A stretch of DNA of 64,000 nucleotides. It comes from Candidatus Eremiobacterota bacterium. Its GTDB lineage: Bacteria; Vulcanimicrobiota; CADAWZ01; Ess09-12. The notes under the pieces were generated by a model. It saw nothing but the letters and a program-made list of their open reading frames with translations. It had not been told where the DNA came from and searched no databases. Positions within the stretch are counted from its first letter, which is position 1. Every line of letters begins with the position of its first letter. The stretch covers positions 62,001 through 126,000 of the forward strand of contig JAVHLM010000003.1 in assembly GCA_031082125.1 (NCBI GenBank), given 5' to 3'. Shown here in pieces: positions 48,160 through 63,700 of the stretch. The position numbers were made by a program, and so were the translations under genes.

Positions 48160-48179
48160 GTCAAGAGGATTTGGTTACC

Positions 48180-48788: not shown

Positions 48789-48870
48789 GCATTATTTATA
48801 TTTTCTATTACGCGTATAGATGCGAATGTTACAGATTTATCAATAGGTATAAGCATTTTAAATTCTTATA

Positions 48871-48899
48871 TTGACATCTCTCTTAAAATATGGTAGAAT
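48871..48899 (+). promoter_or_regulatory. Strong sigma-70 promoter of the replication module
   Basis: TTGACA (48871-48876), a 17-base spacer, TAGAAT (48894-48899). It begins a leader of roughly 260 bases before the first helix-turn-helix gene. The 14 bases just before it (TTTAAATTCTTATA) recur before the recombinase promoter at 60694. Confidence 0.75.
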
Positions 48900-48906
48900 C
48901 ATCTTA

Positions 48907-49164
48907 AGAAAAAACATACTAAGAAAACTTCCAGGACCGACACTTGACAAAGAGAGGGGTGATGGATATAGAGGCAAAAAAATAAGAAAGGTTTCGCACC
49001 TGTGTAAGGTGGAAACCCGGTTCCGAAATGAAACCTTCAGCAAGTTCATTATATCAAGCCTTACAAAAAAGTCAAGCGTGACTTGACACTATACAAAGGC
49101 TGATCGGGACCGGCAACCTCCTACCAGGTAAAGCTCAAGACTTACTATCGTAGGAGGTTTTATT
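48907..49164 (+). promoter_or_regulatory. Structured leader with sequestered ribosome site
   Basis: No gene in about 260 bases. Structures seen: AAGGTTTC (48988-48995) can pair with GAAACCTT (49030-49037), enclosing CACC/GGTG; the dyad GTCAAG-CGTGA-CTTGAC (49071-49087); and AACCTCCTAC (49115-49124) pairs perfectly with GTAGGAGGTT (49150-49159), which contains the ribosome site of the gene at 49165. The last stem would block translation unless opened, so leader-based control of the replication genes is inferred. A small RNA may also arise from this leader. Confidence 0.6.
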
Positions 49165-49431
49165 ATGCCTATTCTCTCAAACCCCGTGATTCAGGCTGTC
49201 TCAGGGATGAAGATCAATACCGCTGATCTCTGTGCACAAGCTGGAATCTCAATGCACACTCTCTACACCCTGAAAAAAGGTGTTCCCCATAAGATTCCAA
49301 GCAAGCTGTTAGATTATTTTCAAGCCTCAGGCTATTCCCCGGAAGCTCTGGTGGCTCTCCAGCAGGACTATGAAGCCTGGCGAGGCTCCCTTCAAAAAAA
49401 GACCTCTATTGCTGGAGGTGACGCAGCATGA
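49165..49431 (+). CDS. Small helix-turn-helix protein
   Basis: 88 residues. NTADLCAQAGISMHTLYTLKKGVPHKIPSKLLDYF reads as an XRE-like helix-turn-helix. First gene after the structured leader, with its ribosome site inside the stem. Likely a regulator of the island. Coupled to the next gene as ATGA. Confidence 0.7.
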   Translation: MPILSNPVIQAVSGMKINTADLCAQAGISMHTLYTLKKGVPHKIPSKLLDYFQASGYSPEALVALQQDYEAWRGSLQKKTSIAGGDAA

Positions 49432-49709
49432 GTAAAAGCGGCTGTACACCAGCGCCATTTGAAATGGATAAGAAATTAGGCTGTCATTGGGAAACAGAAA
49501 ACCGCTCTCCTCTATTCTCCCCAGATATGATAACGGACTTCAGGGAGGCAGTGAGGGCTAAGAGGCTTTCCCCCAAACAGGCAGCAGAAGCCATAGGAAT
49601 ACCTGTCAATACCGCTCTCCTGGTATTCAGCGGCGGCACACCCAAGGGCGCCAGAAAAATCAAAGCAAAAGTTAGGGCATGGCTTGTCTCAGAGAGGGGG
49701 CAGGCATGA
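49428..49709 (+). CDS. Second small helix-turn-helix protein
   Basis: 93 residues. The C-terminal half (LSPKQAAEAIGIPVNTALLVF) has a similar helix-turn-helix plan to the gene before. The N-terminal half is polar with two Cys. Overlaps both neighbours as ATGA. Confidence 0.62.
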   Translation: MSKSGCTPAPFEMDKKLGCHWETENRSPLFSPDMITDFREAVRAKRLSPKQAAEAIGIPVNTALLVFSGGTPKGARKIKAKVRAWLVSERGQA

Positions 49710-50026
49710 AAAACGAAGCCATCTCAACAGCACTGGACTCAATCCAGGAGGCCATGAAGAAGGCGGAGAGCAGCAATGAACTTCAGGCACTCACCGACAG
49801 AATGATCGCCCTGCTTGATCGGATGTCAGAGGAGCAGGGCAGACTCATCACCCTTGATGAGGCGGCGGAATTCCTTGGCTGCCAGAGGGCAACGGTGGCA
49901 CGCTGGTGCAACGAGGGCAGGATTCCCTTCATCCCGGTGGGCGCCAAGAAGATGTTTGACGCGGCAGCCCTCAGGAAATATGCCATCTCCCTCACCATGA
50001 AGGCTCACAAGGCATGGAGGAGGTAA
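49706..50026 (+). CDS. Excisionase-like helix-turn-helix protein
   Basis: 106 residues from ATG 49706. A helical start and an excisionase/MerR-like module at 45-95: LITLDEAAEFLGCQRATVARWCNEGRIPFIPVG. It could be a directionality factor or a repressor; the gene is far from the integrase, so regulation is as likely. Confidence 0.78.
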   Translation: MKNEAISTALDSIQEAMKKAESSNELQALTDRMIALLDRMSEEQGRLITLDEAAEFLGCQRATVARWCNEGRIPFIPVGAKKMFDAAALRKYAISLTMKAHKAWRR

Positions 50027-50030
50027 CGCA

Positions 50031-50252
50031 ATGACGCACAGTGACCCCCTCAATGCAGCGCTCCTCCGCCTTTTCGGCACACTTCACCAGGCAGTCCCCA
50101 CGTGCCGGGGCGAGGGAATCCCTTTTACCCCGGAGCTCAAGGAGGACCTGCTGGAGAAGCTGGAGGAGGCCCGGGATCTCCTGCGGCATGACCTCGGGCT
50201 CCCCATCACTGCTGATGACCATGACATCTCCGAAAAACTCAGATTGAGATGA
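50031..50252 (+). CDS. Hypothetical small protein
   Basis: 73 residues, acidic, helical, behind GGAGGTAAC. No recognisable domain. In the same run of closely spaced genes as the primase. Confidence 0.55.
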   Translation: MTHSDPLNAALLRLFGTLHQAVPTCRGEGIPFTPELKEDLLEKLEEARDLLRHDLGLPITADDHDISEKLRLR

Positions 50253-50266
50253 AAGGAGCAATGACA

Positions 50267-50500
50267 ATGAAGGTAAGTGAACAGACACAGAACAATGAGA
50301 GGAATCTCGGCGATTTAATCGAGCAGATACAGGGAATGGGGAGGAGCGAGTCGCTAGAGGACACCAAAAAAAAGTCCCCGCTTCTTGCTAAAGTATTACG
50401 CCTTCTTGCTGATCAACTGGAAGCCTTTGGTGATGGAAATCAAGACATTGAAACCGTTGCCTCTTGCAAGGATACCACGGTGGGCAATTCATTAGACTGA
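50267..50500 (+). CDS. Hypothetical small protein
   Basis: 77 residues from ATG 50267, chosen because AAAGGAG lies eight bases upstream; an ATG at 50249 would overlap the previous stop. Helical, polar, ending with a Cys-Lys-Asp motif. Function unknown. Confidence 0.5.
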   Translation: MKVSEQTQNNERNLGDLIEQIQGMGRSESLEDTKKKSPLLAKVLRLLADQLEAFGDGNQDIETVASCKDTTVGNSLD

Positions 50501-50520
50501 CAGCAGAAAGGAGTTTCGGT

Positions 50521-52875
50521 ATGCTGGATCTCGGTGACATCTTCAAACAGAAGCCGAAAGAAGCAGCCCTAATTATGCTCAGAATGGGGATTCAACCCGT
50601 GCCCATCCCTCCGGGGATGAAAGGCCCCATCCTGAAAGACTGGCCTAATTTCCGGTGTACCCCCGATGAAGCGGAGAAGTATTTCCCTGATGAAGGAAAT
50701 ATCGGCGCCCTTTGTGGGGAGCCATCACGAGGCCTTCTCTGCATTGACCTGGACTGCCTCGAAGCTATCACAGTAGCAGCGAAGGTACTGCCGGAAACCG
50801 GCATGAAGGATGGCAGGAAAAGCCGTCCCTGCGCCCACTGGTTTTACCGCGTTGAGGAAGGGGTATATGAAGCTTATAATGACCCTGAAGAGGGAGGGCG
50901 CTTCATTGAAGTGCTTTGGAACGGCCACCAGGCAGTGATCCCTCCCTCAGTGCAGGGCGGGAGTGGCGAGACCCGGGAATGGGTTTGTGATCGTGGGGAT
51001 TTCAGCCCTGCTGCGGCTGAATTTGAAGAACTGAGAAAAAAGGTCTCCTACATTGCAGCGGTGTGCCTCATCGCCAGAAGATGGAAGCAGGGAACGCGGC
51101 AGGAGCTTGCCTTGCTGCTTGCTGGTGCTTTTGCTCACGGTGGCATAGAGGAAAAAGAGGCGGTGAAATTTATTCGCCTGGTGTGTCAGGCTTCCGAGGA
51201 TGAGGAACGGGAAAAACGGATTGATACTATTGAGACTACTTACGGAAAATTAGGCAACGGGGAAATAACCACGGGCATTCCCAAGCTCAAGGAGTTCCTC
51301 GGAGAGAGAGTTTTCGCCAAGCTGGAGACCTGGCTGAAGCTGAAAAAGCCTATTGAGAAAGCGAAAGAATATAACCGCTCAGACAAGGGCAATGCTGAGA
51401 GGCTTGCCGATAAAGAGAAAGGCAACGTGCACTGGGTTGACAACCTCGGCGGCTTCTTTGTGTGGAATGGCACCTATTGGGAGTGTGATACCACAAAAGT
51501 TATATACCATAAAGCCCTTGAAACTATTGAGGACATGCAGCGGGAAGGCCATGAGCAGAAAAACCAGGAACTTCAAAAGCACGCCCTGCAATGTGAAGCA
51601 CTTTACAAGGTGCTGAATATGGTGGATTTCCTGAAGATACTCCCCGGAATTGCCATAAAACCTGAAATATTTGACCAGCAGCCCTGGCTTCTGAACTGCG
51701 ACAATGGCACCATTGACCTGCGGACCGCCGAATTTTACACCCACCGGCGCGAGGATTACTTCACCAGGCGAATATACATTCCCTATATCCCATCGGCACA
51801 GTGCCCCCGATGGCTCAAGTTCCTTGACCAGATAATGAATGGCAACAGGAATCTCATCAGCTTCCTGCAGAGAATGGCGGGTTACACCCTCACTGGAATC
51901 ACCAGGGAAGAGGTTTTCGTTTTTCTCTATGGAACCGGAGCCAATGGCAAGAGCACCTTCCTCTCCACAGTCTCGGATATACTCGGGCCTTATACCATGA
52001 ACGTGTTAACCACCATGTTCATTTCAGACTGGCAGTCAAAAAGGGATGACTCTTCCCTTGAAAAGGCAAGTCTCAAAGGTGTCCGTATGGTTATCACTGA
52101 GGAAATCCCTGAAGGGAGAATGAATGCCACTGCCATTAAACAGCTTACCGGCTCTGAAAAAGTGAAGGGACGTTTCCACCGTAAAGATTTTCTAGTATTC
52201 ATGCCTGAATTCAAGGTCTGGATGCACGGAAACACAAAGCCTACTATAAGAACTGTTGATGAAGGTATAAGACGCCGTTACCTCATGGTTCCTTTCGATG
52301 TCACCATACCTTTACCGGAGCGTGATAAATGCCTCTCCGAGAAGCTCCGGGCAGAATCGTCAGGGATTTTAAACTGGCTGATCGAAGGGTGCATGATATG
52401 GCAGCGGGATGGCCTCAATCCCCCTGAGGAAGTGATCTCCAGAACCAATGAGCACTTATACGATGAGGATTCCTTCAGGAGATTTTTCGAGGACTGCTGC
52501 CAGATAGGAAATCCTGATAACTTTATTTCTAACAAAGCTATTCAGGTTTGTCATAGAGAGTGGTCACAGACACAGGGAGAACTGGAATTAAGCCCCAAAG
52601 GCCTTGCAAATAAGTTGAAGAGTAAGGGGTGCATAAAAGCAAAGTTCGGGGGGGTAAGAGGCTTTTCAAAGCTTATTCTGATAAAGAAAATTGCCGATTT
52701 TGATATACCCTCTGGACACATAGTAGATTTAGACTGTCCTTCCGGTATATCCTCTTCTGATATATATATAAAGGATATACGGGGAGGAATGGAGATGTCT
52801 CCTAAGTGTCCTGATCCCCCTTTGCCCTACCCTGAAGAATCCGATGGCTATGAGGAATGGGAGGAGCGAGTATAG
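50521..52875 (+). CDS. Primase-polymerase / D5-like SF3 helicase
   Basis: 784 residues from ATG 50521 behind AAAGGAG. The N-terminal bifunctional primase-polymerase domain has GNIGALCGEPSRGLLCIDLDC with the catalytic acidic pair near residue 74. Then a D5 N-terminal-type region (residues 300-440) and a superfamily 3 helicase: Walker A GTGANGKST near 471, IEEIPEG-type Walker B (VITEEIPEG), and VWMHGNTKP sensor. The winged-helix tail follows. It should start and unwind replication of the excised island, as in P4-like and other satellites. Confidence 0.9.
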   Translation: MLDLGDIFKQKPKEAALIMLRMGIQPVPIPPGMKGPILKDWPNFRCTPDEAEKYFPDEGNIGALCGEPSRGLLCIDLDCLEAITVAAKVLPETGMKDGRKSRPCAHWFYRVEEGVYEAYNDPEEGGRFIEVLWNGHQAVIPPSVQGGSGETREWVCDRGDFSPAAAEFEELRKKVSYIAAVCLIARRWKQGTRQELALLLAGAFAHGGIEEKEAVKFIRLVCQASEDEEREKRIDTIETTYGKLGNGEITTGIPKLKEFLGERVFAKLETWLKLKKPIEKAKEYNRSDKGNAERLADKEKGNVHWVDNLGGFFVWNGTYWECDTTKVIYHKALETIEDMQREGHEQKNQELQKHALQCEALYKVLNMVDFLKILPGIAIKPEIFDQQPWLLNCDNGTIDLRTAEFYTHRREDYFTRRIYIPYIPSAQCPRWLKFLDQIMNGNRNLISFLQRMAGYTLTGITREEVFVFLYGTGANGKSTFLSTVSDILGPYTMNVLTTMFISDWQSKRDDSSLEKASLKGVRMVITEEIPEGRMNATAIKQLTGSEKVKGRFHRKDFLVFMPEFKVWMHGNTKPTIRTVDEGIRRRYLMVPFDVTIPLPERDKCLSEKLRAESSGILNWLIEGCMIWQRDGLNPPEEVISRTNEHLYDEDSFRRFFEDCCQIGNPDNFISNKAIQVCHREWSQTQGELELSPKGLANKLKSKGCIKAKFGGVRGFSKLILIKKIADFDIPSGHIVDLDCPSGISSSDIYIKDIRGGMEMSPKCPDPPLPYPEESDGYEEWEERV

Positions 52876-52948
52876 TGAGGACACATGCTGAAAAATATTG
52901 GACACATGTGATAAAAGCAAGTAAAGCCTTATACCAAGAGGAAAAACA

Positions 52949-54844
52949 ATGACCTTCACACCAGAACTCTTGAAGCGAATAGAAAGCCACGGCCTGAAGC
53001 TCTCACTTGAAGGGCAGGAGATTGTAATTTCAGGCAACAAGGCTGCCTTTACCCAGGAGCGCCGGGCTTTCATCACACAGAACAAGGCAGAACTCATCTC
53101 CCTCCTTCAGGAGAGAGACTCAGCGCAACAGGTTTCACAGGACAATTCTTTGAAAGCGGGAGATGGGGACGGGGCTTCCTCGGGCGCTCCCTCCATACAA
53201 CCCCCGGAGGCTCCCTCCCCGCTTTTTTACCCTTGTGCCGGACCTGGTGATCGTCAACAGGTCCTTGCTGTGGACCTGGAGACCACAGGCCTTGATCCCC
53301 GCGTGCACCATTTACGCCTCGTGAGCTTTGCAGGTGACCAGGGCGCCGGGGTGCACGAGACCCCAGAGCCTCTCCGGGATGTCCTTGCAAACCCGGCCAT
53401 CACGAAGGTGTTCCACAATGCCCCTTTTGATGTTCCCTGGCTTCTTCACCATGGCTACCAGGTGAACACCTATGAGGACACCATGCTCATGGAGCAGGTC
53501 CTCTGCAACGGAGAGCGGCGCCCTAAAGGGGGATATGGCCTGCAGGCCCTCGTGAAAAAGTATTTTGACCTGGACATTGACAAGTCACTTCAGGGGGCAA
53601 ATAACTGGGACGGCTTTCTCTTCCCGGAGCATTATACTTATGCTCAGAAGGATTCAGAAGTTACCCTGCTGCTTTACCGGCACCTCAGGGAGCTTCTCGC
53701 GGCAAAAGGCTATCAAGCGGTGTACTCGAGGGAAGCCCGGGCGCTCCCGGCCATCATTCGCCTGCAGCGGGACGGTATGCCTTTTGATGCACCGGCCTGG
53801 CGTGAGGACCTCGCAGGGCATAGGAGGAAGCTGATGGCACTTGACGCCGAGATCAAAGAGGTGCTCCCCTGCGGGAACCTCGCCTCCCCGGCACAGCTTC
53901 TCTCAGCCCTCAACGGGATGGGCTTGCACCTGGAGGATACGTCTGATGAATCCCTTGCCCTGAGTGAGACACTGCACCCCGTTCTTCCCCTCATTCGCTC
54001 CTGGCGTGCCGCTCAGAAGCTCTGCACTGGATTCGGTGAGAAGCTCCTTGAGAAGGTCCGGGATGGCAGGATTTACTCTTCCTGGAGACTCATTGGCGCT
54101 ACCACCGGCAGAATGTCATGCTCCGGCCCGAACCTGCAGCAGGTCCCTCGGGATCTCCGTCGCTTCTTCAATGCGGCGCCTGGTCACAAGCTGGTAGTGG
54201 CAGACTATTCCCAGATTGAGCTCAGGATCGCAGCAGAGGTAGCAGGGGAACAGAACATGCTGGAAGCCTTCAGGAAGGGCGAGGACCTGCACCGGCTCAC
54301 GGCTCAAATGATAACCGGCAGGCGTGATGTCACCAAGGAAGCCCGCCAGATTGCAAAAGCCTGCAATTTTGGCTTACTCTATGGGATGTCCGCCGAGGGC
54401 TTCAGGAACTATGCTGAGATTGACTATGGTGTACAGCTCACCCCTGAGGAAGCCGAGGATTTCAAGAGGCGCTTCTTTGAGGCATACCCCGGCCTGAGGT
54501 CCTGGCACCAGAAGCAGAGCCGGTCCAGGGTGATCACCACTCTGGGAGGGCGCTCCTGGGATGAAACAACCCTGAGCTCACCTCTCAACAAATTTAATTA
54601 CCCAGTACAGGGAACGGCAGCAGAGGGGCTCAAGGAAGCCCTCGGGCTCCTCGTGGCAGGTCTTCCCGAAGAGTGGAAACTCTGCGGGGTGATCCATGAT
54701 GAGGTTGTACTCGAGACACCAGAGCATGACGCCGAGAGGGCAGTGGCCCTCCTTGAGAAGGCAATGGTGGAGGGTATGTCCACCCTGGTCAAAGAGGTTC
54801 CTATTGTGGCTGAGGCCACTGTGAAAGATACATGGGAAAAGTAG
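52949..54844 (+). CDS. Family A DNA polymerase with 3'-5' exonuclease and a TubC-like N-terminal domain
   Basis: 631 residues. Residues 1-55 (LLKRIESHGLKLSLEGQEIV, NKAELISLL) resemble the TubC N-terminal docking fold. The DEDD exonuclease is at 100-260 (AVDLETTGLD, FHNAPFDVPWLL, YAQKDSEVTLLLY). The polymerase part has motif A VVADYSQIELRIAAE near 416, motif B RQIAKACNFGLLYG and motif C IHDEVVLE near 583. There is no 5'-3' exonuclease domain. All catalytic aspartates are present. Replicative polymerase of the island. Confidence 0.94.
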   Translation: MTFTPELLKRIESHGLKLSLEGQEIVISGNKAAFTQERRAFITQNKAELISLLQERDSAQQVSQDNSLKAGDGDGASSGAPSIQPPEAPSPLFYPCAGPGDRQQVLAVDLETTGLDPRVHHLRLVSFAGDQGAGVHETPEPLRDVLANPAITKVFHNAPFDVPWLLHHGYQVNTYEDTMLMEQVLCNGERRPKGGYGLQALVKKYFDLDIDKSLQGANNWDGFLFPEHYTYAQKDSEVTLLLYRHLRELLAAKGYQAVYSREARALPAIIRLQRDGMPFDAPAWREDLAGHRRKLMALDAEIKEVLPCGNLASPAQLLSALNGMGLHLEDTSDESLALSETLHPVLPLIRSWRAAQKLCTGFGEKLLEKVRDGRIYSSWRLIGATTGRMSCSGPNLQQVPRDLRRFFNAAPGHKLVVADYSQIELRIAAEVAGEQNMLEAFRKGEDLHRLTAQMITGRRDVTKEARQIAKACNFGLLYGMSAEGFRNYAEIDYGVQLTPEEAEDFKRRFFEAYPGLRSWHQKQSRSRVITTLGGRSWDETTLSSPLNKFNYPVQGTAAEGLKEALGLLVAGLPEEWKLCGVIHDEVVLETPEHDAERAVALLEKAMVEGMSTLVKEVPIVAEATVKDTWEK

Positions 54845-54927
54845 CAGTGAAAAAAGGAGGTGATATATAGAATAAAGGCCCATGGGTTAATAGAAACGGC
54901 ATGATAGAGATGAAAGGAGACAGAATC

Positions 54928-55302
54928 ATGATAAAGGAACCAACGGCGAAAAGCAGCGTGATAACGATGGAAACGGCAAGAACCCCGAGGATTGAAGATG
55001 GATCTTATCAGGCAACGGTTGCGGAGGTAAGGATCGAACGTGACGCAGAGAGCCCCTTGGGCATGCGTGATCAGGTGTCCATTTTCTTCCTCGTCGGCCC
55101 CTCGCAGGTGAAACTCAGGACCGTGAAGCCCCTCTCCCTGGACCCCACAAGCCCATTATACCAGACTATCCTGGGTATCACTGGTGAGAGGGCCTGCAAT
55201 GAGTATGACCTTGAAAAAATGGTGGGTCATACCGTTGAGGTGCTGGTCAGGCATCGGGATGGTTGGGAATTCATTGAGAACATAAGGTTCAAGCGGCACT
55301 AA
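54928..55302 (+). CDS. Hypothetical protein, possible OB-fold
   Basis: About 124 residues from ATG 54928 (GGAG eight bases upstream). Predominantly beta: IEDGSYQATVAEVRIER, QVSIFFLVGP, MVGHTVEVLVRHRDGWEFIENI. This pattern resembles phage single-strand-binding or recombination accessory proteins (DUF669-like), which I cannot confirm. Located between polymerase and small genes. Confidence 0.6.
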   Translation: MIKEPTAKSSVITMETARTPRIEDGSYQATVAEVRIERDAESPLGMRDQVSIFFLVGPSQVKLRTVKPLSLDPTSPLYQTILGITGERACNEYDLEKMVGHTVEVLVRHRDGWEFIENIRFKRH

Positions 55303-55368
55303 AATCACCCCGGGGAGGTGTGTCAGCAGGCGCATCTCCCCTCCCCTGATACAGAAAGGAGATAAAGG

Positions 55369-55599
55369 ATGAAGCCTGAGGGTATGTTTATGCTTGACAG
55401 GATAAAACAAAGCTTCATGACTCACCCAGGAAGCCTTATAAAGCTCTTGTCTGAATCCATTATAAAACGATACGACGGAGATTTAGATGCCATAACGAAC
55501 GATATTTTAAATGATAAACCTTGGGCATCACGACAACAAGACGTTATTCTTACAAGAGAGTTCCTTAGGGACCTGTGTTTAGAATATCTGAGAAGATAA
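55369..55599 (+). CDS. Hypothetical small helical protein
   Basis: 76 residues with AAAGGAG upstream. All-helical, no Cys pair, no known motif. AT-rich relative to flanking genes. Confidence 0.55.
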   Translation: MKPEGMFMLDRIKQSFMTHPGSLIKLLSESIIKRYDGDLDAITNDILNDKPWASRQQDVILTREFLRDLCLEYLRR

Positions 55600-55653
55600 G
55601 ATTGAGCCTCCCTGTAAGGTGGAGGAATTTGCCATAAAAGAAAGGAGCAAGAG

Positions 55654-56166
55654 ATGGGGTTTGAAACACCAGTAGAAGTTGAACGATGGGTTAACGATTG
55701 TTTCAGGATACAGCGAAAGGCTGCCTATGAATTATTTGTCAATGTCTCGCCAAGCCTGAGAAATGAAAAATCCTTTGATGCTTACACCGATGCTACTAAT
55801 GAGCTTCTTGCCTATTACTCTTACTGGATCAAATACAAGACGCGATTCGAGGTCATTGAGGACCTTTTGAAAGAGCCGGAATTGCAGGACCATAAGGCAA
55901 TACTCATGAAGCATCAGCCGCCAATAGTCGCCAAGGTGGCAAAAGGCAGGGAAGTTTGGCCTGAATTTCCCAAAGCAGTGCAGCATCTCGAAGAAATCCA
56001 GAAGGTTTTGAAAGAGGTTGATGATGATCTAAGGGAGGAATGTCAGAGGAATTACAAGCAGGGATTTGAGATGCTGAAGGCACGGAACGCCAAGAAGAAC
56101 GGCCCATATGCTTCCATGGAGGTTGTGAGCAAGCATAAGGAAGAAGCTGCCAACGGCATCCAATAG
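55654..56166 (+). CDS. Hypothetical helical island protein B1
   Basis: 170 residues, helical and charged. A segment YWIKYKTRFEVIEDLLKEPELQDHKAILMKH resembles one in the protein at 56714-57109 (YKGHVDTIERLLKDPQLTIKRDRIKKH), suggesting diverged relatives. AAAGGAGC upstream. Function unknown. Confidence 0.65.
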   Translation: MGFETPVEVERWVNDCFRIQRKAAYELFVNVSPSLRNEKSFDAYTDATNELLAYYSYWIKYKTRFEVIEDLLKEPELQDHKAILMKHQPPIVAKVAKGREVWPEFPKAVQHLEEIQKVLKEVDDDLREECQRNYKQGFEMLKARNAKKNGPYASMEVVSKHKEEAANGIQ

Positions 56167-56234
56167 GGCACGCGGGAATGACTGTGAGGGCTGCAAGCAG
56201 ACAGTGACAAAAGAAGAAAGCGAGGTAAAGCATA

Positions 56235-56468
56235 ATGAGTGAGCTTGTGAAACTGACGGGACTCTGGAAGAACACAACAAAGAACGGGGACCCGATTCTC
56301 TCGGGATACCTTGGCGCGGCAAAGGTGCTGATTCTGAAAAACAGGGACAAGCAGGGGGAGAAGGATCACGACTATATTCTTTTCATAACCCCGGCACCAC
56401 CGAAGAAGCCCAAGGAGAGCACGGCACCGACAGCAACAGAGGAAAGCTCAGAGGACGTTCCCTTCTGA
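56235..56468 (+). CDS. Small protein with an SSB-like C-terminal tip
   Basis: 77 residues. The first 50 residues are beta-rich (LVKLTGLWKNTTKNGDPILSG, KVLILKN, YILFITP). A Pro/Ala/Thr linker leads to an acidic end ESSEDVPF, very like the DDIPF tip of single-stranded DNA-binding proteins that recruits replication partners. Role as an accessory ssDNA-binding protein is inferred. Confidence 0.65.
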   Translation: MSELVKLTGLWKNTTKNGDPILSGYLGAAKVLILKNRDKQGEKDHDYILFITPAPPKKPKESTAPTATEESSEDVPF

Positions 56469-56486
56469 GAGAAAGGAGTGAATACC

Positions 56487-56690
56487 ATGCCACAATGCCC
56501 GGTATGCAATCATCGGTTCATAACCGCTTCACAGCAGAGTGCCCAGAAGAAGCAGCGCTCAAGGGCTTCCAGGTTTGCTCAGAAAATACTTGAGCTCTTG
56601 TCCCTGGATGTGCCCGCCGAGGATCTGCAGGAAGCCCTGGATGCTCTCCAGGAGGAAGGCTTTATCGTCAAGAAGCGGCAGATTTCATAA
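56487..56690 (+). CDS. Small zinc-finger-like protein
   Basis: 67 residues from ATG 56487 (AAAGGAG upstream). MPQCPVCNHRF gives one CxxC knuckle; the rest is basic then acidic helices. No second cysteine pair, so dimeric metal binding or none. Confidence 0.55.
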   Translation: MPQCPVCNHRFITASQQSAQKKQRSRASRFAQKILELLSLDVPAEDLQEALDALQEEGFIVKKRQIS

Positions 56691-56713
56691 GACACAAGAG
56701 AAAGGAGGCTATT

Positions 56714-57109
56714 ATGCCTAAAATAGAATGCAATGGAGAGGTTTCTGAGTTCCGGGAAGGGGAGAGAGTGACCCTGGAGGAGCTTGAAACCCGCTGCAAG
56801 AGGGCTTTTGATGAGGCTAAGGAGGCACTTATCACGACAGCAACACTCATGGAAGAATCATCTGATGAGGCAAGAGCAGCACTGGAAGCCTTCAGTGAGG
56901 CTTCCCTCAAAGTGGTGCAGGCAACGGTGGATTATCACAGCTACAAGGGGCATGTGGACACCATAGAGCGCTTGCTGAAGGACCCTCAATTAACAATCAA
57001 GAGAGACAGAATCAAGAAGCACCGGCGTTTAATGCACTGGATTTACCTTGAAGGCAATGCCATCCCGCTCCCCGCGAACATGGGAAAACAGATGGAATGG
57101 GAGGGCTGA
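56714..57109 (+). CDS. Hypothetical helical island protein B2
   Basis: 131 residues, helical. Shares a 30-residue pattern with the protein at 55654-56166. AAAGGAGG upstream. Unknown function. Confidence 0.65.
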   Translation: MPKIECNGEVSEFREGERVTLEELETRCKRAFDEAKEALITTATLMEESSDEARAALEAFSEASLKVVQATVDYHSYKGHVDTIERLLKDPQLTIKRDRIKKHRRLMHWIYLEGNAIPLPANMGKQMEWEG

Positions 57110-57110
57110 G

Positions 57111-57413
57111 ATGAAGAATCAGCAGCACCACCTGATCTCTATTGAGCAGCTTGCAGAGCACTTCAGGCAGGAGGGTGTTGATATTACCCCCGAGATTATT
57201 CTGGATAGAATCTGCAGGATCATGCTCTCAATAGGCTGCCCTCACTGTGGAAAGGAAATATCATTCCCTGTGCCCGATGACATGCAAAGGGCGGTGGCTT
57301 TCTATGAGCGCCACCAGCAGGAGCAGAGCACGGCGGCCCCGATGGGAGGCAGACTGGCAAGCCTGGCTGATAAAAGGGCGGCAAAGAGCAAGCCCCCGAG
57401 AGTGGGAGCCTGA
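57111..57413 (+). CDS. Hypothetical protein with a CPHC knuckle
   Basis: 100 residues from ATG 57111. Helical N-terminal half (ISIEQLAEHFRQEGVDITPEII), IGCPHCGKEISFPVP zinc-like knuckle, basic tail (DKRAAKSKPPR). Near the terminase genes; nucleic acid binding is possible. Confidence 0.55.
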   Translation: MKNQQHHLISIEQLAEHFRQEGVDITPEIILDRICRIMLSIGCPHCGKEISFPVPDDMQRAVAFYERHQQEQSTAAPMGGRLASLADKRAAKSKPPRVGA

Positions 57414-57469
57414 AGCAATGGGAGAGGGGGCTCTGCCGCAGGGCGGGCTTCCCTTCCAGACACAGAACA

Positions 57470-57488
57470 CAAGGAGCCCTGCTCCTTG
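57470..57488 (+). repeat. Hairpin element, copy 2
   Basis: CAAGGAGC, loop CCT, GCTCCTTG, preceded by AGAACA as in the copy at 45410. It lies in the gap just before the small-terminase-like gene. Confidence 0.55.
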
Positions 57489-57515
57489 GCAGGCGGCAAC
57501 AGAAAGGAAAAGCTG

Positions 57516-58046
57516 ATGGCTAAAAGATGTCCAGTTTGTGATCACACTGAAAGTGAGGCTATCAATAAGGCCCTTATCAATAACACACCTTTACACACCA
57601 TAACACACCTTTACACACTGGCCCTTGATTCATTGAAGTGGCATAAAAGGAAGCACCTCCCCGAGCTTCTTTCAAAGGCAGAGGAAGCAAAAGCGGCTTC
57701 TGCCCTTGCCATGGCTGAAGTGGTACAGGAGAAAGAGGCAATGGAGACCGGGCAGGCGGACAGTCTCATGGGACAGTTGAAGGAAATCATTTCCAGGACT
57801 GAGCGTATATATGGGAAAGCAGAGGAAGCAGGGGACCTGAGGACTGCTTTACAGGCCATCAAGGAGAGCCGGGAAAACCTCACCCTCCTGGGCAAGCTGA
57901 TAGGGCAGATTCAGGACGGTCTTACTATTAACCTGTATAATCATCCGGTATGGATTGACCTGAGAGCGGTTATTCTCACGGCACTTGAGCCTTATCCTGA
58001 AGCAAAGGAGGCCCTCTCTGATGCACTTAGCAGAGCTTGCAAGTGA
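57516..58046 (+). CDS. Terminase small-subunit-like protein
   Basis: 176 residues from ATG 57516. CPVCDHTESEAINKALINN, then a helix-turn-helix-like stretch (ITHLYTLALDSLKWHKRKHLPELL), and a helical coiled region. This resembles proteins found just before large terminase genes. It overlaps the ATPase gene by 26 bases. TerS would recognise the packaging site. The call rests on context plus pattern. Confidence 0.65.
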   Translation: MAKRCPVCDHTESEAINKALINNTPLHTITHLYTLALDSLKWHKRKHLPELLSKAEEAKAASALAMAEVVQEKEAMETGQADSLMGQLKEIISRTERIYGKAEEAGDLRTALQAIKESRENLTLLGKLIGQIQDGLTINLYNHPVWIDLRAVILTALEPYPEAKEALSDALSRACK

Positions 58047-58782
58047 TCTCAGGCTTGCCCTTGACCCGGTGACCTTTGCGGCGGAGAAACTGGACATCAC
58101 CCTTGACCAGTGGCAGGCGGAGGTGCTCACTCATCCCTCAAAGAGAATCATCCTGAACTGTTCCCGCCAGGCGGGCAAGAGCACAGTCACCAGCATAATG
58201 GCCCTAATCCGGGCGCTCTATTATCCCAAAAGCCTGATTCTGCTTCTTTCCCCTTCCCTGAGGCAGAGCACGGAGCTTTTCAGGAAGGTGATGGATGCTC
58301 TCAAGAAACTGCATGCCCGGCCAAAGCTCACAGAGGACAATAAACTCTCAACCCAGTTTGACAATGGCAGCAGGATTATATCACTCCCCGGCAAGGAAGG
58401 CACCATAAGAGGTTTCTCGGGTGCCTCCCTGCTGGTGATTGACGAGGCCTCAAGGGTTGATGACAGTACCTACAAGGCGGTGAGACCTATGCTGGCCACT
58501 TCAGGTGGCAGACTGGTGATTCTCTCAACCCCATGGGGCAAGCGGGGCTTCTTCCATGATGAGTGGGTCAACGGGGGCGAGACCTGGCAGAGGTTCAAGA
58601 TAACGGCCCATGATGTCCCGAGAATACCGGCGCCCTTCCTTGAGGAGGAGCAGCGGGCTCTGGGAGAGTTCTTCTTCGCTCAGGAGTATCTCTGTGAGTT
58701 CCGTGAGACTGTTGACCAGGTTTTCAGCTATGAAATGATAATGGGCGCTATAGATCCGAATGTGAAACCGCTTGAATTCTGA
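58021..58782 (+). CDS. Terminase large subunit, ATPase half
   Basis: 253 residues from ATG 58021. TerL ATPase: Walker A CSRQAGKST near residue 48, ILLLSPSLRQS, Walker B LLVIDEAS near 138, and ILSTPWGKRGFFHDEW (coupling motif). The frame stops at 58782 just after the ATPase fold (FAQEYLCEF, the normal bridge to the nuclease). The nuclease is a separate gene 12 bases later with its own ribosome site. A complete TerL is usually 450-600 residues. Confidence 0.9.
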   Translation: MHLAELASDLRLALDPVTFAAEKLDITLDQWQAEVLTHPSKRIILNCSRQAGKSTVTSIMALIRALYYPKSLILLLSPSLRQSTELFRKVMDALKKLHARPKLTEDNKLSTQFDNGSRIISLPGKEGTIRGFSGASLLVIDEASRVDDSTYKAVRPMLATSGGRLVILSTPWGKRGFFHDEWVNGGETWQRFKITAHDVPRIPAPFLEEEQRALGEFFFAQEYLCEFRETVDQVFSYEMIMGAIDPNVKPLEF

Positions 58783-58794
58783 GGAGGAAAAGCC

Positions 58795-59355
58795 TTGTTT
58801 ATCATCGCCTGTGATCTCGGCAAGTCAAAAGACTTCTCTGCCGTCAGTGTGCTGGAGACTCAGCGGGGGGTGAAGCCTGGCACCTATTCCCTCCGGTCCC
58901 TGCAGCGGCTCCCCCTCGGGACGGCATATACCAACGTGACGGAGCACCTCAGAACACTGACTGCCTCCCCCGCCCTGCAAGCCGATGGCAGGCCCCCAGT
59001 GCTTGTGATCGATGGCACAGGAGTAGGGGCAGCAGTAGAGGACATTCTGAGAGCCTGGCGCCTCCCTCTCATCTCCGTGAAGATTCACGGCGGGAACAAT
59101 GTGATCAGGAAGCGGGGGGAGATTCACGTGCCGAAGAAGGACCTGGTGCTCTCCCTGCAGGCAGCATTCTCAGGCGGCAGGCTTCTGGTTTCCAGGGAGC
59201 ACCTTGAGCACCAGGCCTTCCTTCAGGAGCTCCAGTCTTTCAAAGTCAAGATAAACCCGAGAACCCGCAGAGCCACCTTCAATGGCGAGGGCGCTCATGA
59301 TGACCTGGTGCTCTCAGTGGCTCTGGCGGTGTATATCGGGGAGCATGTATTGTAA
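58795..59355 (+). CDS. Terminase large subunit, nuclease half
   Basis: 186 residues, TTG start behind GAGGAGG. RNase H-fold terminase nuclease with all three acidic positions: ACDLGKSKDFS (Asp7), VLVIDGTGVG (near 72) and GAHDDLVLSVALA (near 169). It cuts concatemeric DNA in a packaging reaction if it pairs with the ATPase encoded upstream. Either an intentional split or an old nonsense mutation; the separate ribosome site favours a stable split. Confidence 0.88.
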   Translation: MFIIACDLGKSKDFSAVSVLETQRGVKPGTYSLRSLQRLPLGTAYTNVTEHLRTLTASPALQADGRPPVLVIDGTGVGAAVEDILRAWRLPLISVKIHGGNNVIRKRGEIHVPKKDLVLSLQAAFSGGRLLVSREHLEHQAFLQELQSFKVKINPRTRRATFNGEGAHDDLVLSVALAVYIGEHVL

Positions 59356-59366
59356 AGGAGGAAACA

Positions 59367-60104
59367 ATGGGAAATGCAAGAGAGTTTTACGTGGGGGCCA
59401 GTCTAGGCGGGGGTAGCATTCCCACTGCCTTGATCGTTATAGAGCGAATCATCAGGGACATAAAGGAGATGGTGTCACGCCCCGACGGCATGAAGAAAGA
59501 GCGGGTAAGGCATGAGTTCCATTATGAGGTAAAGAAGGCAGAGAGGATTTCTGGCATGTCCTCCCCTGCCCTGGCTGAAAAGTTCAGTGAGATAAAAGAA
59601 AAGCTCCATTCCCTGGACGGTGGCAGTCATAAAGTGCGTTTTGTGGCCGATGTCTCAGGACCTCTTGCCAGCGAGGCCTTGATACAAATGTTTAAAAACA
59701 AAAGAATTGACTTTGAAAGCTTGGTGATTATCACCACTATGGAGGAGCAGCATAGAGAAGAGAAGTCCCATAAATGGAAAGTGCCCAGGAAGAACCTTGT
59801 GGGGGTTATTCTGACACTTTTTGAGGAGAAGAAACTGGTGATAGCACAAGGCTTGAAAGATATTGAGGCACTGGCGCGGGAATTCACGGACTTTGACCAG
59901 CAGAAAATAAAGCAGCAGAAGAACCAGACTGATGAGGAACCTTGGCGGGAGAAGATAAATGATGATTACCTCTTTGCTCTTGCCGTGGCCTTGTGGGAGA
60001 GTGAACGGCAGGGAATGCCTTGTGTGATAAAGCCACCCCGAATGAGAAAGCCCCACTGGACAGAGAGAATGTTTAGGGACGGAGGAGGACGGAGGATAAG
60101 GTGA
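59367..60104 (+). CDS. Degenerate terminase-nuclease paralogue
   Basis: 245 residues. Parallel to the preceding gene: FYVGASLGGGSIPTALIVIE matches IIACDLGKSKDFSAVSVLE, KVRFVADVSGP matches VLVIDGTGVG, KVPRKNLVGVILTLFEEKKLVI matches the VPKKDLVLSLQ region, and NDDYLFALAVALW matches HDDLVLSVALA. The first catalytic Asp position is Ala/Ser. It looks like a tandem duplicate with a partly lost active site. It may form a regulatory partner of the nuclease. AAGGAGG upstream. Confidence 0.72.
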   Translation: MGNAREFYVGASLGGGSIPTALIVIERIIRDIKEMVSRPDGMKKERVRHEFHYEVKKAERISGMSSPALAEKFSEIKEKLHSLDGGSHKVRFVADVSGPLASEALIQMFKNKRIDFESLVIITTMEEQHREEKSHKWKVPRKNLVGVILTLFEEKKLVIAQGLKDIEALAREFTDFDQQKIKQQKNQTDEEPWREKINDDYLFALAVALWESERQGMPCVIKPPRMRKPHWTERMFRDGGGRRIR

Positions 60105-60436
60105 TGGCTGAAGCAACAGCACCAAAGAAGAGGGGACGGCCCAAGAAGCGAGGCAGGAAGAGGAAGAAGGGGGCACTGGGACCTGGTGAGCTTCCCCCGG
60201 TGAAATCTTCGAGGAGTATTGATTATCACCGGGAAGGATGTCCTTGTGTGGTATGCACACAGAAGCGCCAGACGGGGGAGCGGGTTTACAAGAGACCTGT
60301 TGCATTTCGGCTCCCCGATGAGGTGATTGATCACCTGAAGGTCATGGCCGAGGAGCAAAACATGCTCCCGAGCCACCTGCTGGAAAAAATCATCCTGGAA
60401 TACCTCGGGACCCCCGAGGCAGGAATAGCGATTTGA
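60104..60436 (+). CDS. Basic DNA-binding-like protein
   Basis: 110 residues from ATG 60104 (GGAGG upstream). An AT-hook-like basic start (KKRGRPKKRGRKRKK), a CPCVVC knuckle and a ribbon-helix-helix-like end (VAFRLPDEVIDHLKVMAEEQNM). Probably binds DNA. It is last of the terminase-linked run and overlaps the previous stop by one base. Confidence 0.65.
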   Translation: MAEATAPKKRGRPKKRGRKRKKGALGPGELPPVKSSRSIDYHREGCPCVVCTQKRQTGERVYKRPVAFRLPDEVIDHLKVMAEEQNMLPSHLLEKIILEYLGTPEAGIAI

Positions 60437-60755
60437 CGCTGTAAACACCGCTGAAATTTTAATTCAGGGGGGGGGTAGGTATTCTGCTACTTCGTGAGGG
60501 GAGCCCCGGCCCTGTGCGTGGAAATCGTACCCTATCTCCGAGGATGGGCAAAAAAGGCATGAAAATGGCGTGGTAATAGGGATACACAATGATGAAAGAA
60601 AATGTAAAAATATTCAAGAAAAATCACGTTTAGTTTATTCACAAGGGACCCCTCACGTATAAAATAAAAGCCATATAAAATACCATAAAACACTTTAAAT
60701 TCTTATAAAGTTATGGTATAATGAGATCAGAGCTCAGGTTACAGGAGGGACGAAC
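60437..60755. other. Intergenic region with G-run and recombinase promoter
   Basis: About 320 bases without a gene. It starts with an AT-rich step into a run of nine G (around 60468-60476), then a GC-rich patch (GAGGGGAGCCCCGGCCC near 60496-60512), then 150 AT-rich bases. A G-rich segment beside terminase genes could be a packaging (cos) site; no further evidence. Confidence 0.4.
60681..60722 (+). promoter_or_regulatory. Promoter with overlapping operator dyad for the serine recombinase
   Basis: Extended -10 TG-G-TATAAT (60714-60722). An inverted repeat TACCATAA (60681-60688) / TTATGGTA (60711-60718) overlaps the -10, a layout expected for a repressor operator. TTTAAATTCTTATA (60694-60707) is shared with the promoter at 48871. 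Confidence 0.6.
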
Positions 60756-61460
60756 ATGAAGAAAGCCGTGGTGTATCTCAGAGTATCCACCTCCGATCAG
60801 GTCAATGACGGGGTTTCTCTCTCTAATCAAGAGGAGAAGATAAGTGCCTATTGCAAGATGGTGGGGCTTGAAGTGGTGAAGGTGATCAGGGAAGAGGGTG
60901 TCTCCGGCAGCATCAGGCTCTCCACGAGACCCGGCGGGCAGGAGCTTCACCACCTGGTCACCAAGAAGATGGTGGGGCATGTTATTGCCCTGAAGCTGGA
61001 TCGCCTGTTTCGTGACGCTGAGGACGCTCTGCACCAGACAAAGGAATGGGACAAGCTGGGGGTGGCCCTCCATCTGGTGGATATGGGAGGGCAGACTATT
61101 AACACTGCCACGGCCATGGGGAGATTCTTCCTGAATATGATGGCAGGATTCGCGGAGCTTGAAAGAAATCTCATCGCAGAGAGGACTGCCACAGCCATGA
61201 GCTTTAAGAAAAGCCACCTTCAGGTGTATAGCCCGGTGCCTTACGGATATGACCGGCGAGGAGATGAGCTTGTGAGGAACGAAGAAGAGCAGGCGGTCAT
61301 CACCACGATAAAGAACATGAGAGCAAGCGGCATGAGTTACTGCAAGATGGCTGAGATTCTCAACAGGGACCACGTGCCTACAAAAGGGGGCGGAAAGTGG
61401 CATACCTCAACCCTTTACGGTATAGTGAAGAACAGTCTCCACAAGGAGGGCGCAGCATAA
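60756..61460 (+). CDS. Serine recombinase (resolvase/invertase family)
   Basis: 234 residues. Catalytic YLRVSTSDQ (Ser11), LKLDRLFRDAEDAL and FAELERNLIAERT are the resolvase core. A short recombinase-type DNA-binding region with YGYDRRGDELV follows. ACAGGAGGG precedes the ATG. Shorter than large serine integrases (usually over 450 residues). Possibly a dimer-resolving or inverting enzyme. Its TAA overlaps the next ATG. Confidence 0.9.
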   Translation: MKKAVVYLRVSTSDQVNDGVSLSNQEEKISAYCKMVGLEVVKVIREEGVSGSIRLSTRPGGQELHHLVTKKMVGHVIALKLDRLFRDAEDALHQTKEWDKLGVALHLVDMGGQTINTATAMGRFFLNMMAGFAELERNLIAERTATAMSFKKSHLQVYSPVPYGYDRRGDELVRNEEEQAVITTIKNMRASGMSYCKMAEILNRDHVPTKGGGKWHTSTLYGIVKNSLHKEGAA

Positions 61461-61684
61461 TGGAAAGGGCTTTTTCTGTCAAACAGGTGGCGGAGAAACT
61501 CTCCGTGCATATTAAGACCGTGCAGAAGTGGATAAAAGAGGGCAAGCTGAAAGCCCGGCTATTAGGCGGGGAAGCGGGTAAAGATAAGAAGCATGGGGAT
61601 TGGAGAGTATCGGACACTGATCTCCAAGAGTTCTGGGACAGCTTGCCGGGGAACTATGGGGAGCAGCAGGACCGAGCGCAATAG
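61460..61684 (+). CDS. Excisionase-like helix-turn-helix protein
   Basis: 74 residues. FSVKQVAEKLSVHIKTVQKWIKEGKLKARLLGG is a MerR/excisionase module. It starts at 61460, overlapping the recombinase stop by one base. Position between two recombinases suggests a directionality factor. Confidence 0.83.
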   Translation: MERAFSVKQVAEKLSVHIKTVQKWIKEGKLKARLLGGEAGKDKKHGDWRVSDTDLQEFWDSLPGNYGEQQDRAQ

Positions 61685-61696
61685 AAGGAGGCATGG

Positions 61697-62428
61697 ATGA
61701 AAACCCTTTATGAGAAGATTGACCTCCAGCAGCAGGAAATAAACAAGCTCCGGCCACTGGACGCTCATTTGAGGAAGCAGGTGAAGGAATACTTCAGGAT
61801 CGGGCTCACCTATTCCAGCAACGCCCTTGAGGGAAACTCTCTCACCGAGAGTGAAACAAAGGTAATCCTGGAGGATGGAATTACAATAGGCGGGAAGCCC
61901 CTGAGGGATCACCTGGAAGCAGTGGGGCACAGTGATGCCTATGATTATATGCACAGGCTTGCCAGTGGGAAGGCCATCAAGGAAGCTGATATAAAGAAAC
62001 TGCACCGGCTTTTCTTCCAGAAGATTGATGAGGGCGTTGCAGGGCACTATAGGAAGGTGAAGGTATTCATCACTGGCTCAAAGTATCCTATGCCTGCACC
62101 TGAGGCAGTGCCGATGCTGATGAAGGGATTCATGGAGAACCTTACCAAGGAGCGGGAGCTCCTCCACCCTGTCCAGTTCGCTGCTAAGATGCACAAGGAC
62201 TTTGTAATGATTCACCCCTTTGTTGACGGGAACGGGAGGGTGGCAAGGCTTCTGATGAATCTCATCCTTCTGCGGGAGGGGTATTGTATAGCCATCATTC
62301 CCCCTGTCCTCAGGGCTGATTATATCAGGACGATAGAGAAGGCCCGGGAAGATGACAAGGACTTCCTGCAGTTCATTGCAGAAGTGGTGAGTGAGACACA
62401 GAAGGATTACCTGAGATTGTTCTCATAA
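61697..62428 (+). CDS. Fic-family AMPylase-like protein
   Basis: 243 residues. Active-site HPFVDGNGRVARLL near residue 173 is a perfect HxFx(D/E)GNGR motif. An inhibitory SxxxEG motif is at about residues 41-46 (SNALEG), so it looks like a class II (N-terminally inhibited) Fic. It modifies a target with AMP or a related group. Directly before the integrase gene; may act on the host or as a toxin. Confidence 0.92.
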   Translation: MKTLYEKIDLQQQEINKLRPLDAHLRKQVKEYFRIGLTYSSNALEGNSLTESETKVILEDGITIGGKPLRDHLEAVGHSDAYDYMHRLASGKAIKEADIKKLHRLFFQKIDEGVAGHYRKVKVFITGSKYPMPAPEAVPMLMKGFMENLTKERELLHPVQFAAKMHKDFVMIHPFVDGNGRVARLLMNLILLREGYCIAIIPPVLRADYIRTIEKAREDDKDFLQFIAEVVSETQKDYLRLFS

Positions 62429-62437
62429 GGAGCAACA

Positions 62438-63487
62438 ATGACCAGGCTCTACAAGCGAGGAGATATCTTTTATATTGACTATACCGACAGGCAGGGCAAC
62501 CGGCACAGGAAGAGCACCGGCACCACGAACAAGCGCCTGGCTGAAGAGCAGCTTGCCAAGGAGAAAGCGGCAGCACTGGACAGGAAGGCAGGCATTGAGA
62601 CCCCGGAGAAGGTTACACTCAGTGAGTTTGCCACTGAATTCCTGTCCTTCTGCAAGGCGAACAAGAAGCCAAATACCGTGGTATTCTATGACGTTACCCT
62701 GAAGGCCCTGGTCAGAACCTTTGGTGATTACCTGCTTGATGAGATAAAACCTTATTTCATAGAGCAGTATAAGCTGAAGCGGGCGCGGGATGTCTCGAAA
62801 ACCACGGTGAAGCGGGAGATGACAACACTGCACCGGGTTTTCAACCTCGCGATTCTTTGGAAGAAAGCGGTCGATAATCCTGTTAAGTTGGTGGATAAGA
62901 TAAAGGAGCCGGAGGCGAGGACCCGCTCTCTCTCCGAGGAAGAGCTCCGGCGCCTGGTGGCAGAGTGCGGCCCCCCTTACCTGAGGATGGCCGTGCTCAT
63001 CGCTCTTAACACTGGGTTGAGAAAGGGGGAGATTCTCGCCCTGGGAAAAGATGACGTTGACCTTGAAGCAGGGATCATTTCAGTCTCATCGACAATGTGT
63101 GCCACTGGACTTGGCACACCTAAAAGTGGCAAGGGGAGGCAGGTGCCAATAAATAGCACTCTACTCCCTGAGCTTGCAAAGTGGGTTGAAGGCCTGAAAG
63201 AGGAGCACCTCTTCCCCCATGGGGACTTCAAGAAAGCCTTCAACGCAGCAGTGAGGCGGGCAGGCATTAAGGATTTCCACTTCCATGACCTGAGGCACAC
63301 CTTCGCCTCCCGCCTTATCATGGCAGGGGCGGACATCGCCACCCTCAAAGAGCTCCTGGGGCATGCCACCCTTTCGATGGCCATGAAGTATGCCCACCCC
63401 TCAAAAGAGCATAAGCGCATGGCGCTTGATAAAATTGGTGAATTGTTTTCAACAGAAAAAAATGCCCTTATGGGCAATGGGTTTTAA
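62438..63487 (+). CDS. int: Tyrosine recombinase / integrase
   Basis: 349 residues. SAM-like core-binding region then a catalytic domain: Arg in NTGLRKGE near 193, HDLRHTFASRL near 284, GHATLSMAMKYAH with the Tyr near 318. The N-terminal arm-type DNA-binding domain is present (YKRGDIFYIDYTDRQGNRHRKSTGT). It reads toward attR. Recombines the tRNA-Phe attachment site. Confidence 0.95.
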   Translation: MTRLYKRGDIFYIDYTDRQGNRHRKSTGTTNKRLAEEQLAKEKAAALDRKAGIETPEKVTLSEFATEFLSFCKANKKPNTVVFYDVTLKALVRTFGDYLLDEIKPYFIEQYKLKRARDVSKTTVKREMTTLHRVFNLAILWKKAVDNPVKLVDKIKEPEARTRSLSEEELRRLVAECGPPYLRMAVLIALNTGLRKGEILALGKDDVDLEAGIISVSSTMCATGLGTPKSGKGRQVPINSTLLPELAKWVEGLKEEHLFPHGDFKKAFNAAVRRAGIKDFHFHDLRHTFASRLIMAGADIATLKELLGHATLSMAMKYAHPSKEHKRMALDKIGELFSTEKNALMGNGF

Positions 63488-63494
63488 GGAGGTT

Positions 63495-63514
63495 TGTGTG
63501 CCATTTTTGTGCCA
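63495..63514. repeat. Putative integrase arm-binding repeat, right copy
   Basis: Identical to 44740-44759. Lies seven bases after the integrase stop. Confidence 0.6.
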
Positions 63515-63568
63515 AGTTATCCTGAAAAGAGGCCCGTTTTTGTGTCTAAAGGCTATTTAATTGAAAAT

Positions 63569-63586
63569 TTTTACCTATTGGTAAAA
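63569..63586. terminator. Possible bidirectional terminator inside attR
   Basis: TTTTACC, loop TATT, GGTAAAA, flanked by AT-rich sequence on both sides. It could end the integrase transcript and, read from the other strand, the tRNA operon, replacing the native terminator at 44563-44590. Confidence 0.4.
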
Positions 63587-63669
63587 TGCCCTGGAAGCTT
63601 ATTAAAGAGGGAAAAGAAATATGCCGAGGGACAGAATCGAACTGTCGACACCATGATTTTCAGTCATGT
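63583..63669. repeat. attR direct repeat
   Basis: Right copy of the 87-base repeat, containing the tRNA-Phe 3' half; the complete tRNA continues to 63694. Confidence 0.93.
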
Positions 63670-63694
63670 GCTCTACCAACTGAGCTACCTCGGC
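63622..63694 (-). tRNA. tRNA-Phe (GAA)
   Basis: 73 bases. Acceptor GCCGAGG/CCTCGGC, T-arm with GTTCGATTC, anticodon stem CATGA/TCATG with loop CTGAAAA (anticodon GAA). Discriminator A; the CCA is not encoded. Last in the Val-Asp-Phe operon and the target of the island. Confidence 0.96.
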
Positions 63695-63700
63695 ATAAAA

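Follow-up and report, generated by a model that had tools for sequence, protein, structure and literature searches.

A Candidatus Eremiobacterota genome carries an integrated element of about 19 kb (44595-63677) that encodes its own split phage-type terminase together with a degenerate copy of the terminase nuclease. It lies in a 64,000-nucleotide stretch of contig JAVHLM010000003.1, hereafter the window. The large terminase subunit (TerL) is encoded there by one gene for the ATPase and another for the nuclease (Nuc1), followed by a paralogue (Nuc2) in which the first catalytic aspartate is replaced by serine. The reading that we favour, with a probability of about 0.55, is that of a satellite-like element possessing its own split terminase and a non-catalytic nuclease subunit through which DNA cutting would be tuned or blocked. 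It is supported by the same gene order and the same aspartate loss in the closest relative, by the attachment (att)-like repeats bounding the element, by the low ratios of nonsynonymous to synonymous substitution rates (dN/dS) of degenerate nuclease pairs and by comparable layouts on plasmids. The first-pass annotation of this DNA had described the terminase genes only; they belong to an integrated element without recognised structural genes, and only loci with additional nuclease copies were found to have lost a catalytic residue.

The packaging genes

The interval 57516-60104 comprises four co-directional genes on the forward strand, each open and preceded by a ribosome-binding site. Three of them had been recognised by the first-pass annotation, which missed the fourth, a gene encoding a protein resembling the small terminase subunit (TerS) at 57516-58046. 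This TerS-like protein has a CxxC...H..H N-terminus and ends with a conserved (Y/F)P(E/D)A motif, and dozens of loci, among them those of Thermus and Meiothermus phages, have a homologue immediately ahead of TerL. C-terminal motifs of this type occur in 37 of 191 genes located directly upstream of the ATPase gene (again including Thermus and Meiothermus phages) versus 47 of 10,282 open reading frames (ORFs) overall, which supports a putative conserved docking tail of the small subunit. The 57516-58046 protein would act as TerS.

The second gene (58021-58782, ATG start with AAAGGAGG upstream) encodes a stand-alone TerL ATPase of 253 amino acids. It matches Terminase_6N (2.3e-16), the profiles of T4 gp17 and PDB 4zni and, over most of its length, the ATPase-only family phrog_7579 (1.8e-62; 239 positions, terminase large subunit). 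It carries the motifs of a TerL ATPase, i.e. a Walker A motif SRQAGKST, a Walker B motif LLVIDE and a coupling motif STP. As first proposed, the ORF ends just after the ATPase fold and the nuclease gene begins 12 nt farther on, at a TTG codon (58795) with its own GAGGAGG site, so that the two domains that define TerL on a single chain are here the products of separate genes.

Nuc1 (58795-59355) is an RNase H/RuvC-type nuclease that has all three catalytic aspartates in the motifs ACDLGKSKD, VIDGTG and HDD. It matches phrog_27743 (6e-34) and, below the Pfam cut-off, Terminase_6C (0.003). Its family profile matches the TerL nuclease of G20c/P74-26 (PDB 5m1f) at 1.6-1.8e-16, and its AlphaFold2 model (predicted local distance difference test, pLDDT, 95) retrieves the same structure as best PDB match by Foldseek (3.8e-9). 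In the PDB alignment, the first aspartate of Nuc1 corresponds to D294 of G20c, and the later motifs to D347 and H427-D428-D429. In G20c TerL, the D294N, D347N and D429N substitutions give the lowest nuclease activity, while D300N is near wild type and H427N reduced but active (PMC5389553).

Nuc2 (59367-60104, ATG start with AAAGGAGG) matches the same family as Nuc1 along its length (phrog_27743, residues 2-216, 1.8e-13), and its AlphaFold2 model (pLDDT 86) displays a terminase-nuclease fold, the best Foldseek match being the nuclease of human cytomegalovirus UL89 (3n4q, 2.6e-5). The earlier proposal that a third gene repeats the nuclease pattern without the first catalytic aspartate is therefore borne out by both family match and fold. 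Its aligned motifs are GASLGGGSI, VADVSG and NDD. Compared with Nuc1, the motif-I aspartate is replaced by serine, the aspartate six residues on by isoleucine and the motif-III histidine by asparagine; the equivalents of D294, D300 and H427 are thus gone and the motif-II and motif-III aspartates are kept. The models also differ, since a strand pair at residues 149-164 of Nuc1, just before the last helix, is modelled as helix and loop in Nuc2, which also has longer second and third strands. Nuc2 has the fold of a three-aspartate nuclease but not its motif-I aspartate, and is predicted to have lost catalysis. A relationship of Nuc2 with Shedu (SduA) was considered and discarded, the Pfam match being below the cut-off (E 0.001) and the terminase fold being found instead. 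By tblastn, neither Nuc1 nor Nuc2 has any match in cultured phage records.

A split that is ordinary in its clade

Tailed phages ordinarily carry packaging ATPase and nuclease on one chain, which fixes the number of nucleases per motor. In the TerL clade of the window ATPase, a separate nuclease gene lies next to the ATPase gene, often with an overlap of a few bases, in at least 119 of 199 sampled loci (80 genome loci and more than 100 viral loci, a sample biased towards relatives of the split query). A fused nuclease was detected in 15 loci, and the ATPase appeared alone in 58, most of which probably are ORFs of 400-500 amino acids carrying a nuclease that the detection model missed. Split terminases are found in bacteria, archaea and plasmids, their hosts including Methanomicrobiales, Magnetococcales, Chloroflexi, Acidobacteria, Planctomycetes and Actinobacteria, among others. 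No description of split terminases was found in the open-access part of the literature, which was the part searched. However, the matches to phrog_7579 and phrog_27743 (233 positions, unknown function; both window nucleases match over most of their length) indicate that separately encoded proteins of both types are already present in phage databases.

A split terminase could also result from a local nonsense mutation, a frameshift or an assembly error in an ordinary TerL gene, and single-chain relatives are indeed known in Thermus phage Riverbug and Meiothermus phage MMP17. This origin is barely credible here and was ruled out: the closest relative, an IMG/VR contig (L005) inspected for an unbroken TerL, is split in the same way, as are the many sampled loci, often with overlapping stop and start codons, and the ATPase and nuclease genes have separate ribosome-binding sites. 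The split is therefore ordinary in this clade, and the novelty initially suggested for the whole arrangement holds only for the pairing of an active with an inactive nuclease next to a separate ATPase, which is real, conserved and recurrent.

Compared with the TerL of the G20c/P74-26 type (nuclease structures 5m1f and 5tge, with a Terminase_6N, T4 gp17-like ATPase), the window has both modules in the same order, the Walker motifs, and in Nuc1 the aspartate triad with profile and fold matches, but on two polypeptides instead of one and with a third, degenerate nuclease. The family phrog_27743 is unannotated and no duplicated degenerate copy is described there.

Conservation and recurrence of degenerate nucleases

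The three-gene order, looked for in other genomes, was found in L005, whose genes are arranged as in the window: TerS-like protein, ATPase, Nuc1, Nuc2, small basic protein, serine recombinase and integrase. The Nuc2 of L005 also has a serine at the position of the motif-I aspartate. Identity between window and L005 reaches 83% for the ATPase, about 64% for Nuc1 and about 35% for Nuc2. The Nuc1 proteins of both elements form one clade (support 100/100) and their Nuc2 proteins another (100/96); in these trees, the duplication therefore predates the divergence of the two elements. The array nucleases, encoded by loci that carry several copies, form a separate well-supported clade. Grouping the Nuc2 of the window and L005 with the second copies of four other loci (L242-L245) as one old lineage received 95 by SH-aLRT in a quick tree and 60/81 in a careful one, and is not claimed.

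A substitution in motif I or motif II was found in none of the 133 loci with a single nuclease versus five of the seven loci with several (Fisher 5e-8, a figure that is indicative, related loci being counted as independent). All five also hold an intact copy. Targeted searches added three degenerate sets (L235, L236 and L241), as well as L242, which has a glutamate in motif I, and L243-L245, whose second copies keep the triad. The residues hit differ among loci: the window and L005 have serine at motif I, the arrays asparagine at motif II, or glutamate or arginine at motif I. This pattern suggests more than one event of catalytic loss. A further duplicate in Zavarzinella (L052) was set aside, an in-frame TAG interrupting its extra copy. 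In one genome (G150), the nuclease-array module is present several times, as separate copies or fragments on five contigs (C177, C363, C391, C471 and C519).

Nuc2 could still be an active nuclease whose metal use or specificity has changed. This would agree with its two remaining aspartates, with the intact triads of the second copies in L243-L245 and the motif-I glutamate of L242, and with the mild effects of the D300N and H427N substitutions in G20c, but the residue that has become serine in both the window and L005 is the one that is indispensable in G20c, and the strand pair of Nuc1 is modelled as helix or loop. Residual activity is thus quite improbable.

Selection bears on another explanation, in which a prophage has decayed into the present element and Nuc2 is a duplicate being lost. 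The lack of structural genes, the quick divergence of Nuc2 and the broken Zavarzinella copy would all be expected from decay. However, the orthologous degenerate copies of other loci have low dN/dS (0.175 for L057/L235 and 0.105 for L236/L240), the four packaging genes of the window are open with ribosome-binding sites, the ends of the element are intact, and both closed plasmids and several groups of bacteria and archaea show the same layout, all of which make decay unlikely.

An integrated element without recognised structural genes

The element is bounded by a 99-nt direct repeat, 94% identical between its two copies (44595-44693, attL-like; 63579-63677, attR-like). The right copy overlaps a tRNA-Phe gene (63621-63695, reverse strand), and a tyrosine integrase gene adjoins it (62438-63487, forward strand; phrog_1, 3.8e-82; 55% identity to the L005 integrase). 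A 24-nt repeat located just inside both ends (44740-44763 and 63495-63518) possibly corresponds to integrase arm sites. Replication functions would be provided by a Prim-Pol/D5_N primase-helicase (50464-52875, forward strand; D5_N 2.3e-30, Prim-Pol 1.4e-10, phrog_1156 1.8e-122) and a family-A DNA polymerase (52949-54844, forward strand; phrog_17, 4.4e-113). No capsid, portal or tail gene was recognised among the element proteins scanned against PHROG structural families, a scan that very divergent proteins could escape, several small ORFs having been compared with Pfam only or left out. The window element therefore resembles a satellite in being integrated, in having an integrase, att sites and its own replication gene, and in lacking phage structural genes among the proteins scanned. 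It was probably acquired horizontally, because no second Terminase_6N gene was found in the host genome and no relative of the ATPase in the 149 genomes of the phylum that were searched.

Similar elements occur elsewhere. In L057, L068 and L241, an integrase and a primase-type gene are followed by a terminase module with nuclease arrays and then by unrelated genes, with no portal or capsid gene recognised; L059/L240 and L236 have the same layout with no integrase in view. In L031 and L129, genes for a primase, a TerS-like protein, the ATPase, the nuclease and an integrase precede host genes. Among split loci for which 4 kb or more of downstream sequence was available, 39 of 82 with a single nuclease had a recognised portal or capsid gene, versus none of eight with several (p about 0.01, or 0.017 without L052). 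This is a trend, given that portal detection is incomplete and the loci are related. In L059 (4708-6007) and L236 (7275-8625), the split terminase is directly preceded by a ParB-like gene (PHROG match in L059, sequence likeness in L236) and, by eye, a Mom-like gene.

Contig truncation alone does not explain the absence of structural genes, since complete circular plasmids also have no annotated capsid or portal. Salinibacter ruber pSR11 (11,229 bp) and pSR14 are closed circles with a primase, a split terminase and a tape-measure-like gene, and Rhodococcus plasmid pDJL3 carries a terminase and a tape-measure gene; none has an annotated capsid gene, and the two pSR plasmids have no annotated portal gene either. 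The pSR plasmids have been described as plasmids carrying terminase genes (PMC6060240). With pSR31, they share with the window element a primase-type gene, a TerS-like gene, the split ATPase and nuclease and the lack of annotated capsid or portal, but they are autonomous ParA plasmids, their nucleases keep the aspartate triad, and they have the tape-measure-like gene, clear in pSR11 and pSR14 and weak in pSR31. Tape-measure-like genes also lie in L005 (3384-5801) and L023 (9742-12468), where, as on pSR11, pSR14 and pDJL3, a terminase is present with no capsid or portal seen or annotated; an element of this kind might determine the length of a tail that it borrows.

The window element shares an integrase, a replication primase, accessory genes, att sites and the lack of a tail gene set with the capsid-forming PICIs (cf-PICIs) and the P4-like, SaPI/PICI and PICMI satellites. 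The cf-PICIs encode both TerL and TerS, and some SaPIs encode TerS (PMC10690885, PMC11389934). However, cf-PICIs also encode capsid and portal, and no capsid, portal or head-tail connector was detected in the window element by the PHROG scans. The P4-like, SaPI/PICI and PICMI satellites are described with TerS or packaging signals, not with TerL. No split TerL or nuclease paralogue was found for any of these satellites in the literature searched. P4-like genes for capsid size and derepression, such as sid and psu, did not turn up in the PHROG scans, although no search was aimed at them. Tycheposons, which a review names (PMC11389934), are defined by their architecture in picocyanobacteria.

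A putative mode of action and its alternatives

According to the satellite reading, the element would replicate by its own primase-helicase and polymerase, the TerS-like protein would recognise its DNA, the stand-alone ATPase would pump this DNA, and Nuc1 would cut it. The DNA would presumably enter helper-phage procapsids, because the element has no recognisable capsid, portal or tail genes. With ATPase and nuclease on separate chains, subunits could be exchanged and a dead nuclease could occupy the place of an active one without cutting. Nuc2 would then be a maintained, catalytically disabled paralogue that takes the nuclease place on the motor and limits or times cutting. It could act on the element's own motor, for example in an active/inactive pair that keeps cleavage from coming too early, or on that of the helper, which it would poison. 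A non-catalytic regulatory role, in either motor, is the most likely one for Nuc2.

In a stronger version, Nuc2 would be a dominant-negative weapon, replacing the nuclease on the helper motor and blocking cutting of the helper genome to the benefit of the element. There is precedent in satellites that redirect or block the packaging of their helpers, as do SaPIs that inactivate the helper TerS (PMC10690885); Nuc2 is the fastest-diverging protein of the module, and multi-nuclease loci have no detected structural genes. However, no helper is known and no target has been identified, and the degenerate copies of the array clade (L057/L235 and L236/L240) do not diverge much faster than intact ones. 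Such a weapon is rather doubtful.

Several observations weigh against the satellite reading itself. Neither a helper phage, a packaging site nor encapsidated DNA has been seen, and the host genome holds no second Terminase_6N gene that would point to a helper prophage. Compared with the neighbouring genes, Nuc2 evolves much more quickly, as judged from identity to L005, with a dN/dS of 0.33 (dS being near-saturated), which also fits weaker constraint. The second copies in L243-L245 keep all three aspartates, only the histidine and the aspartate six residues on being changed, and both nuclease copies of pSR31 keep all three catalytic aspartates; therefore, duplication does not always mean inactivation. 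The copy-number tests suffer from the relatedness of the loci noted above. Finally, the trees do not fix the place of Nuc2 within the family, neither a within-element origin (approximately unbiased test, p 0.38) nor an origin from the arrays (p 0.43) being rejected.

Other genes of the element and its surroundings

Downstream of Nuc2, all on the forward strand, the next gene of the operon (60101-60436) encodes a small basic protein with a weak Arc/CopG-like C-terminus (best family match E 0.025), whose L005 orthologue is at the same place. It is followed by a serine recombinase of the resolvase/invertase type (60756-61460; phrog_95, 3.1e-55; orthologue in L005), an HTH_17 excisionase-like protein whose start is uncertain (61397-61684; 8.8e-11) and a Fic-domain protein (61697-62428; Fic 1.5e-22, PADLOC PDC-S04 3.7e-32). 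The latter resembles PDC-S04/SoFic candidates of PADLOC and sits between terminase and integrase like satellite cargo, which it possibly is.

In the left part of the element (47119-48067), small genes include one with a ParE-type toxin match and one with a HicB-like antitoxin match (below the Pfam cut-off). Outside it, a host ORF of 734 amino acids (39215-41419) has long low-complexity repeats of MPS and AAP units and adjoins RsmE- and PrmA-like genes. In L243 (7248-12000), the terminase module is followed by a large protein without assigned kind and by a second protein that starts like SIR2 (by eye) and contains a kinase region resembling PD-T4-6 (PADLOC); they look like defence cargo.

Significance

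More broadly, and tentatively, the window element may belong to a widespread and undescribed group of 'packaging-only' satellites, integrated or plasmid-borne, in bacterial and archaeal hosts, which would encode TerS and a split TerL but no capsid, and would repeatedly evolve dead terminase-nuclease paralogues as motor subunits that tune their own cutting or sabotage that of the helper. Elements that lack structural genes yet maintain a pseudo-nuclease, and do so recurrently, have no precedent in the literature searched. The separation of the ATPase from the nuclease, together with the addition of disabled nucleases, makes the number of active nucleases per motor, and the restraint of cutting during translocation, directly testable. 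If these elements are satellites, they would add a packaging-only type to the P4-like, PICI and cf-PICI types and would point to terminase subunits as possible tools in the conflict between satellites and their helpers.

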